In this document: one piece after another, positions 10,600 to 37,164 of the stretch | Layout: every line of letters starts with the position of its first letter | Numbering within the stretch: position 1 is the first letter of the stretch | DNA from: Gammaproteobacteria bacterium | Lineage (GTDB): Bacteria; Pseudomonadota; Gammaproteobacteria; Natronospirales; REEB76 | Direction of reading: 5' to 3' | DNA: 56,566 nt | NCBI GenBank assembly: GCA_035279405.1 | Contig: DATEHU010000022.1 | Span: 1-56,566, forward strand | Made by a program: the position numbers and the translations under genes | Notes under the pieces: model-generated | Databases searched by the model: none | The model's input: only the letters and a program-made list of their open reading frames with translations | Told to the model about the DNA's origin: nothing

Positions 10600-11166
10600 T
10601 CAACGCTTGTAGGTGGATTGCAGGATCACGACCGATTTGCCGTCCGGGCTCACGCCGCGCGCGGTGATCGCGTACAACTGCTGGCCGGGAACCGGCGCGC
10701 TCACGTCCAGCGACTGGCCGGGGGTGGCCACATACTGGAATGGCTCGACGTAATAGCTGGCCGTCGCGCCGGTATTGCCTCCGATGGCGAGCGTCCCGGT
10801 ATAGGGAATGGATTTACCGGCCCAATTCCAGTTTTGCCAATCGGCTCCCGCCGTCAGGGGATAGCCACCGGAGTCGTTGGAAGTCGGGTAATAGCCGAGC
10901 ACGCTGCCATCAAACGGCGGCAGCGAAGCCAGGCCGTTCAATGCCTGCTCGCCCTGGCGCAACGCGGCTTCCGCCGCCTCGAAGGCCAACTGGTGCGAGC
11001 GCTGATTGCCGGCCATGCGCTCTTCGAGCGAGGTGCTCTGGATCGCGGCGATGCCGAGAATGGTGAGCACCAGCAGCAGAATCAAGCTGACGACCAGCAC
11101 TACGCCTTGCTGGCGCCGGGGCGGTGAAGAAAACCGGGGCGGTGCAGAAAAATCGTGTGGTTTCAT
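10600..11166 (-). CDS. pilX: Minor pilin PilX
   Basis: 188 residues. A leader MKPHDFSAPPRFSSPPRRQQG ends in G/V, followed by the hydrophobic helix VVLVVSLILLLVLTILGIAA and the PilX N-terminal signature STSLEERMAGNQR with AFEAAEAALRQGE. This matches the PilX_N/PilX family of minor pilins, which form the initiating complex with PilV, PilW and FimU under PilY1. Position five of the mature helix is Val rather than Glu. The ATG at 11166 lies inside an 8-bp sequence repeated at the end of pilW, so its original overlap with pilW was probably separated by a repeat insertion. Confidence 0.9.
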   Translation of the reverse strand: MKPHDFSAPPRFSSPPRRQQGVVLVVSLILLLVLTILGIAAIQSTSLEERMAGNQRSHQLAFEAAEAALRQGEQALNGLASLPPFDGSVLGYYPTSNDSGGYPLTAGADWQNWNWAGKSIPYTGTLAIGGNTGATASYYVEPFQYVATPGQSLDVSAPVPGQQLYAITARGVSPDGKSVVILQSTYKR

Positions 11167-11599
11167 GGCGAGTTCACCCCGAGGTCTTGCCCCCTCCTTT
11201 GAAAAAGGAGGGTGGGGGAGGATTTTCCTGTTTCATTACAGATGGCATTGCGTCTTGTAGGAGCGGCGATATTCGCCGCGATTCTGCAAGCGTGGAAATC
11301 GCGGCGGTGACCGCCGCTCCCACAAAATCCTGCTCCCTCCTTTGAAAACGGAGGGCGAGCTGCAAAGCAGCGAGCGGGTTGCCCGGGGCGCATTGCGACG
11401 CAATGTGCGGGTTGCCAGGGATGGCAACCCTGGACAGGAATACGAAGCATGGATTGCGCAGTATTCATGCAACCCTGGGCTTTCAGGCGAAGTCGGAATG
11501 CGCAGCCTGAAAGGGGAGGATTTTCTTGCAAAATCCCCCTTGATCCCCCTTTTGCCAAGGGGGATGGCAGCAGTGGCAACAGGATAGTGTTCATGGCAC
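11159..11599. repeat. Composite repeat inserted between pilX and pilW, flanked by an 8-bp direct duplication
   Basis: About 416 bp of repeat DNA separates pilW from pilX. TTCATGGC occurs at 11163-11170 and again at 11591-11598, where it holds the pilX start and the pilW stop. Taking out one copy and the insert restores an ATGA overlap between pilW and pilX. The insert contains AGGAGGGTGGGGGAGGATTTT and GGGGAGGATTTTCTTGC blocks, a CCCCCTTTTGCCAAGGGGG hairpin and a REP-like hairpin at 11257-11323. A 143-codon frame crosses the insert and overlaps both neighbours by ATGA. Its text is repeat-derived (PLLPSPLAKGGSRG), so it is not called as a gene. Confidence 0.75.
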
Positions 11600-12760
11600 G
11601 TGGTTGCGCAGCGCGATGGTTTCGACGAACACCCGGTGCAGCCGCCGGGTGGTGGTGGCGCCGGGGTTTGGCGGCGGCGTGACCGCGACGCCGTCCACGT
11701 CAAGCGCGGTGAGCGTCGTGGCCGGCACCACGTTATTGTTGCTGCGGATCAGCAGGCCGAGACGCACGCTCACGATGTTGGCCGCCGCCCAGTTGCCAAT
11801 GCCGCTCGCGGCCACGTACTGGTTGGCGATGCCGTCGCCGTCGGTGTCCACGCCATAGAGGACCTGCATGTTCTCGATATCGGGTACCAGTTCCTGGGGA
11901 GTAGCCAGCGCGCCGGTGTTGCTCAGGATGACTTGGTAGAGCGCCGGTCCCTGATCGGCTCCCCGGCCGATGTAATACAGATAAGTCTGAATCGTGTAGA
12001 GCTGGGCCGGAAGCCCAAAATTGCCGACCTTGCCGGCGGACACGTTTCCCGGAGACACGCCGCCGCCTGCGGAATGGACAACCGTTCCGCTGCTTTGGTT
12101 GACATTGGTTGCCTGGAATACGGCCGATTGCGAGCAATTGGTAACATACGCAATGGTGCCTATGACCAGACCGGCATTGGCCAGCGACACGTTGTTGTAA
12201 ACCTTCACGTTGGCGGAATTGCCGCCGCCCGGGAAACTCGATATGGCAATGCCGCCGGGGGTGACGGCGTGGATCATGATGATGTCGCTGCCGGGGATGA
12301 CGGTGTTGCTAATCGCGCTCCAGATGGTCGCGGGCAGGGCCGGCGACCAGTCGCTCGCGGAGGTATCAAGCGCCGGCGTTTCCGATGCGACGGCGTATTT
12401 TCCGCCCACGTTGGTCGCGGGACTGTTGTAGTCATAGCCCTGCACGGCTTGCGTAAAGTTGTAAAAATCAGTCTGAACGTTCAGCAGGTTGACGCTGGGA
12501 GCCTGCCAGAGACTCTGGCCGCCGCAGCCGGTGTAGCCGGCGAGGCGCAGTACCGGTCGCATGAAATCCAGTGCGAAGCGGCCGTTTTCCTGCAAGCGCG
12601 CCACGGCGCTGCCAAGCGTGTAGCTTTGCCGGCTGGCCAGGAACATCGAAATCACGCCGGCCATGAACACCAGGCCGACCACCAGCGCAATCATCAGCTC
12701 CACCAGTGACAAACCCTGCTGGCGGGCCGGAACGAACGGATGCGGGTGCCGGCGGTTCAT
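11591..12760 (-). CDS. pilW: Minor pilin PilW
   Basis: 389 residues from ATG 12760. The leader MNRRHPHPFVPARQQG precedes the processing site G/L and the helix LSLVELMIALVVGLVFMAGV with Glu at mature position 5. PilW-type text follows (ENGRFALDFMRPVLRLAGYTGCG). The long C-terminal half includes a PDIENMQVLYGVDTDGDG segment that is common in PilW. The start overlaps the pilV stop (ATGA); a longer frame upstream lies within pilV and lacks the pilin leader spacing. Part of the minor pilin priming complex. Confidence 0.92.
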   Translation of the reverse strand: MNRRHPHPFVPARQQGLSLVELMIALVVGLVFMAGVISMFLASRQSYTLGSAVARLQENGRFALDFMRPVLRLAGYTGCGGQSLWQAPSVNLLNVQTDFYNFTQAVQGYDYNSPATNVGGKYAVASETPALDTSASDWSPALPATIWSAISNTVIPGSDIIMIHAVTPGGIAISSFPGGGNSANVKVYNNVSLANAGLVIGTIAYVTNCSQSAVFQATNVNQSSGTVVHSAGGGVSPGNVSAGKVGNFGLPAQLYTIQTYLYYIGRGADQGPALYQVILSNTGALATPQELVPDIENMQVLYGVDTDGDGIANQYVAASGIGNWAAANIVSVRLGLLIRSNNNVVPATTLTALDVDGVAVTPPPNPGATTTRRLHRVFVETIALRNHVP

Positions 12761-36696: not shown

Positions 36697-36922
36697 AGAT
36701 ACTCCTGGAGCCGCCTGCTGGCGCATAAGCGCCATGCCGGTCCAGGCAGTGAATTGTTTTAAGGGGATCGGGGAATACGCTGTAAAGGTAGGCCGCGATG
36801 GGCTTGCGGGACAGCAGACCGGAGCGCGTCACCTCAAACTCGGGGCGCATTGTACAGGAGCCGCGGCGATTTACCTAAGAGCGTCTAACAAAATGTGCGA
36901 TGGTTATCACCCGGCACAGTTT

Positions 36923-37058
36923 AAATCCCCCCGCTTTCGAACTTCGCAATCCTGCTTTGTCCGAAAGTCCAGGGCCGCCGTCCGTGGCGGCCCGCTCGGA
37001 GCTTCGCTCCTCGCCCCCTTTGCAAAGGGGGGAGCGCGCTTTGCGCGCGGGGGGATTT
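36923..37058. repeat. AAATCCCCCC/GGGGGGATTT-bounded repeat element
   Basis: The 468-bp gap between rhlE and the DoxX gene has no credible gene. It holds this 136-bp element with exact 10-bp inverted ends, GGCCGCCGTCCGTGGCGGCC and CCCCCTTTGCAAAGGGGG hairpins, and GCGCGC around TTTG. Outside it, TAACAAAATG (36888) and CATTTTGTTA (37071) extend the inverted ends further. A GTCATGCCGGC segment with some likeness to the repeat before purL follows at about 37119. Confidence 0.75.
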
Positions 37059-37164
37059 GTCACGAATGGCCATTTTGTTAAGTGTTCCAAGGAAGCGCTA
37101 CTGATTTATTCCGTTTTCGTCATGCCGGCAGATCCCGGCTTTCGTTGGGAGGCATCCGGTGAGT

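Follow-up and report, generated by a model that had tools for sequence, protein, structure and literature searches.

Organization of the pilW–pilX junction

The window, by which we mean the whole 56,566-nt stretch of DNA that was analysed, carries on its minus strand the genes pilV, pilW, pilX and pilY1, as assigned from open reading frames and family profiles. The pilW gene (11591..12760, minus strand) matches the PilW profile (7.1e-28) as well as N_methyl, and its TGA stop codon lies inside CCATGAAC. The product of pilX (10600..11166, minus strand) is a minor pilin that matches PilX_N (1.2e-18) and the PilX C-terminal family (3.5e-11), and relatives of this gene are present in 37 of 56 genomes; its predicted leader is MKPHDFSAPPRFSSPPRRQQG, which is followed by VVLVVS. 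A Shine–Dalgarno (SD)-like sequence, GGGGTGA (11174..11180, minus strand), is situated 7 nt 5′ of the pilX ATG. An earlier note on this DNA drew attention to the word TTCATGGC, which is indeed found on both sides of the sequence separating the two genes: one copy (11590..11597) holds the pilW stop, in an GCCATGAAC context common to the sister species (G004) and to a genome of another genus (G011), and the other (11162..11169) holds the pilX start. The copies are 420 bp apart, edge to edge, and not 416 bp, as had been given for the insert that they flank; the SD-like sequence falls within that insert.

When the insert is used as a query against its own genome (G000), 54 matches are returned, and these fall on separate pieces of it. 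It was previously taken to be a single inserted repeat, but is made up of several elements. On the pilX side is a short hairpin element, CTCCTTT...AAAGGAGGG, ending in GGGGGAGGATTTT (11190..11226), for which there are approximately 16 hairpin sites in the parts of G000 and G004 that were read. Then comes a REP doublet, TGTAGGAGCGGC ... GCCGCTCCCACA, in which two REPs face each other (11256..11324), followed by a long modular repeat that ends in a CCCCCTT...AAGGGGG hairpin (11328..11569) and has an 85% identical copy elsewhere in this genome (G000:C34:182437-182681). The doublet belongs to the GTAG/GTGG class of REPs, being an opposed pair of short palindromes with the head TGTAGGAGCGGC as tabulated in PMC2817692, and is multi-copy: many partial copies exist, and the REP part accounts for over half of the 54 matches. 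There are four matches to Y1 transposases in G000, none of which has this REP within 1.5 kb, although the type of transposase is not distinguished by these matches and a cognate copy need not persist in each genome. The RNA of the insert is predicted to be strongly structured (fold z = -7.6); nothing in the insert approaches the gathering score of a known structured RNA, and no intrinsic terminator or promoter was found within it.

Between the two genes runs a 143-codon frame (11163..11594, minus strand), the ATG of which overlaps the pilW TGA and the TGA of which overlaps the pilX ATG, so that there is an ATGA at both ends, just as the earlier note described. As a gene, this frame is rejected: it matches no Pfam or NCBIfam family, and the C34 copy of the repeat, which lies at an unrelated intergenic position, is likewise open in the corresponding frame. 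After dinucleotide shuffling, the same frame remains open in 5.6% of shuffles and any frame in 16.7%. The openness of the frame is therefore mostly inherited from the repeat, which elsewhere is open in that frame as well. It is possible that ribosomes pass from pilW to pilX by way of it; pilX seems to own a separate ribosome site.

Several further repeats were seen. Long palindromic repeats lie at 36883-37083 of the window and at C33:188823-188944, C48:54438-54560, C11:80229-80353 and C17:112004-112275 of G000. At their outer ends they conform to the core sites of integron attC (RYYYAAC ... GTTRRRY; ACCTAACAAAATG ... CATTTTGTTAGAC), and they are scattered, forming no single array. An integron integrase scores above the curated cut-off in two genomes of the same genus (G007 and G008), and none does so in this genome; no attC-like repeat was seen within 1.5 kb of the G007 and G008 integrases. 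At G000 C40:98769-98998, compared with G004 C50:2313, a short CCCCCCTTT...GGGGGG/GGGGATTT element in one species has a counterpart in the other with approximately 230 bp of additional modules inside it; it is as though such elements grew from inside. Finally, at G000 C26:420750-421191 (L057), a gene for a Y1 (IS200-type) transposase, interrupted by an internal stop, is situated approximately 70 bp from a CTCCTTT hairpin element; since the element is on one side only, this proximity is possibly due to chance.

The junction in related genomes

Within the genus, pilX starts 13–27 nt after the pilW stop and is preceded by an SD-like site in 12 of 12 junctions from six genomes, although these comparison junctions and genes are only approximately 40% identical and some represent paralogous pil clusters. 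In four of the 12, the pilW stop lies in CCATGA, yet the pilX start, with its SD-like site, comes 17 nt later. In relatives, then, this junction is short. The earlier note supposed that pilW and pilX overlapped by ATGA before the insertion, but no ATGA common to stop and start is found in the same-genus junctions, which are short spacers with a ribosome site. A plain ATGA overlap occurs only in G011, the leader there being 17 aa compared with 21 aa for the window pilX. The N-terminus of the latter, MKPHDFSAPPRF, resembles MKTPHPTADFRH of L045. Given the same-genus spacers and the SD-like site retained at pilX, the ancestor probably had a short spacer and not an ATGA overlap.

A scan of contigs for further relatives returned only the sister species and one distant match. 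G000 and G004 are roughly 88% identical and their genes are collinear, whereas the intergenic spaces have been largely replaced by differing mixes of the same repeat modules. The G004 PilW and PilX genes are 92% and 88% identical, respectively, to those of the window. Its junction carries a REP doublet in the same place and orientation, 88–89% identical to that of the window, and has neither a second TTCATGGC nor the long modular repeat. The earlier note was right that repeats have entered the pilW–pilX junction. Common descent of the two doublets is uncertain because another doublet in G004 is equally similar to that of the window (88.4%).

In G004, the pilX frame is open from an ATG that overlaps the pilW stop, through the REP and into the conserved pilin (MNTLIKSRVEAPIPCGSDGLLWERRSPPRVPCHRIAANIAAPTTQNLQQG, then VVLIVS), and there is no ATG nearer to the mature pilin. 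The first codons of pilX and its ribosome site appear to have been lost here (C54:4640-4790; L010, L039), and the frame reaches the pilW stop by way of the REP doublet. With this arrangement the repeat would encode a leader as long as 50 residues; a start at a TTG within the repeat, as an alternative, would give a shorter leader, still encoded by the repeat. The sister pilX is thus a case of an intragenic REP, in frame within a conserved gene, with its translation predicted from sequence. One might go further and regard prepilin leaders as a tolerant landing zone, in which repeats are either translated as a throw-away leader, as in the sister species, or spanned by a coupled frame, as in the window. 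This general reading seems rather doubtful; if true, it would mean that translation of the operon persists through repeat invasion.

It has also to be considered that pilX originally started at the ATG overlapping the pilW stop (MN(T/V)..., the start seen in G011 and, at present, in G004), that repeats struck the leader codons and broke the frame in the window, and that pilX there restarts at 11166. The ATGAAC at the end of pilW is common to G000, G004 and G011, and the ATG within it opens the pilX frame of G004, both of which would be expected on such a scheme. It is nevertheless unlikely, as it requires an unusually long ancestral leader, and same-genus pilX genes start downstream, with an SD site, even where the pilW stop is CCATGA.

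The TTCATGGC words and target duplication

The earlier note interpreted the two TTCATGGC words as an 8-bp duplication made when the repeat was inserted. A target duplication should touch the ends of the element. Comparison of copies places these ends at approximately 11190 and 11566-11574, because the sequence outside the hairpins varies from site to site; unique sequence of approximately 20 bp on the pilX side and 16–24 bp on the pilW side separates them from TTCATGGC. The separation of approximately 16–24 bp argues against target duplication. When two 40-bp windows separated by 400 bp are placed at random in the genome, they have an exact 8-mer in common at 3.8% of positions. Moreover, four of the eight letters of TTCATGGC are ATGA, which tends to arise where one flank has a start codon and the other a Pro-stop, and in this genome GCCATGAA is read at the start of 0.66% of ORFs and at the end of 0.48%. 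For a single chosen site such a match is mildly unusual; genome-wide it is unremarkable, given the many repeat-filled junctions. Coincidence is the most likely explanation of the 8-letter ‘insertion scar’.

Examination of other copies for 8-bp duplications had been set in the earlier note as a check that could refute its reading, and it revealed none as a signature of the family. The search covered approximately 1.63 Mb of this genome (about two-thirds) and 0.44 Mb of the sister species. Some bacterial MITEs have target duplications, the Correia elements being an example, and certain elements of this genome resemble them in having inverted ends (AAATCCCC...GGGGATTT). However, at 33 such elements there was no direct repeat of at least 5 bp at the termini, and no 8-bp word was shared by their 35-bp flanks. 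Since some elements reach past the inverted ends that were used, the terminal test is less sharp for that subset; the test with wider flanks is less dependent on this. Among 17 REP doublets, only one had a 5-bp terminal direct repeat, the same as in shuffled pairings, and their 35-bp flanks shared one 11-bp word, itself repeat sequence. In 13 other comparisons of long and short (occupied and empty) sites between species, shared words again matched shuffled pairings, with one 8-bp word. Clean empty sites are scarce, as the intergenic regions of G000 and G004 are mostly replaced and not simply gapped. A family-wide target-site duplication is rejected by these 33 elements, 17 doublets and 13 comparisons: a fixed-length direct repeat abutting both ends in many copies, by which a target-duplicating element or MITE is recognized, is not what is found. 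The known IS200/IS605-type transposases, which are relatives of the RAYTs, make no larger target duplications (PMC2817692). As REPs are mobilized by transposases of the Y1/IS200 type (PMC2817692), sizeable duplications are not expected.

That one mobile repeat entered an ATGA overlap with duplication of 8 bp of target, the earlier join being GCCATGAAACCACACG with no spacer, is thus quite improbable: the exact 8-bp match at both gene ends, together with the true ATGA overlap of G011 and its 17-aa leader, close to the 21 aa found here, has to be set against words that do not adjoin the repeat ends, other copies lacking duplications, a multi-element insert, a ribosome site within that supposed insert and same-genus junctions that are spacers.

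Origin of the junction and its consequences

We consider it likely that pilW, a short spacer and pilX were the ancestral arrangement, that repeats accumulated in the spacer, and that the TTCATGGC match is coincidental. The order of events is a reconstruction, for which the anatomy, the repeat membership, the junctions of relatives and the continuity of the frames provide direct observations. In the ancestor, pilW would have been followed by a spacer of approximately 14–20 nt with a ribosome site, ending in GGGGTGAACTCGCC before the pilX ATG. The REP doublet and the hairpin and modular repeats would then have built up downstream of the pilW stop and upstream of the pilX ribosome site. In the window, pilX would have retained its own start and ribosome site, and therefore should still be translatable; the TTCATGGC words would be the old end of pilW and the old start of pilX, identical by chance. 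The sister species would likewise have acquired a REP doublet, but with the first pilX codons and the ribosome site gone, its pilX frame opening at the ATG on the pilW stop or at the repeat TTG and the repeat being translated as a long prepilin leader. Some points weigh against this account: no clean empty site exists, the one close relative being rearranged itself; G011, albeit from another genus, overlaps by ATGA; the GGGGTGA could be a chance SD-like site; and the two species could have acquired their REP doublets at this site independently. The earlier note's picture of repeat movement as dated and reversible does not hold, as the movement is neither dated nor demonstrated to be reversible.

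The structured RNA of the array may modulate the amount of PilX and PilY1 relative to PilW. Translation of a gene is reported to be lowered when a REP follows within 15 nt of its stop codon (PMC12306157); the window REP is far from the pilW stop, and the hairpins start approximately 20–25 nt after that stop. At most, the amounts of PilX and PilY1 would be anticipated to shift mildly relative to PilW. Little effect on mature PilX is expected because prepilin peptidase removes the leader.

The doublet resembles the GTAG-tagged REPs and BIME-like doublets that RAYT/Y1 transposases mobilize (PMC3733652, PMC2817692) in its opposed TGTAGGAGCGGC.../GCCGCTCCCACA palindromes between genes of the same direction, in that no sizeable duplication is expected, and in the presence of Y1 transposase genes in this genome. 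It differs in sitting within a patchwork of CTCCTTT/CCCCCTTT hairpin elements and a long modular repeat that matches no named family here. REPs inside genes, N-termini included, are already known, as are Rickettsia palindromic elements that add residues (PMC3733652). The G004 doublet is comparable in being in frame, where it would add N-terminal residues, but its location is a cleaved prepilin leader and its translation is predicted; it has been cautioned that many N-terminal REP extensions are probably untranslated (PMC3733652). No new kind of system is needed: this is a fairly ordinary build-up of repeats in an operon, to which the sister pilin gene reading through a repeat adds a curiosity. 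The analysis corrects a tempting, and probably false, insertion scar, and sets two sister species side by side, with REP-type repeats at the same junction lying outside pilX in one and in frame with it in the other. It thereby bears on how far operons, and cleaved leaders, tolerate invasion by repeats.
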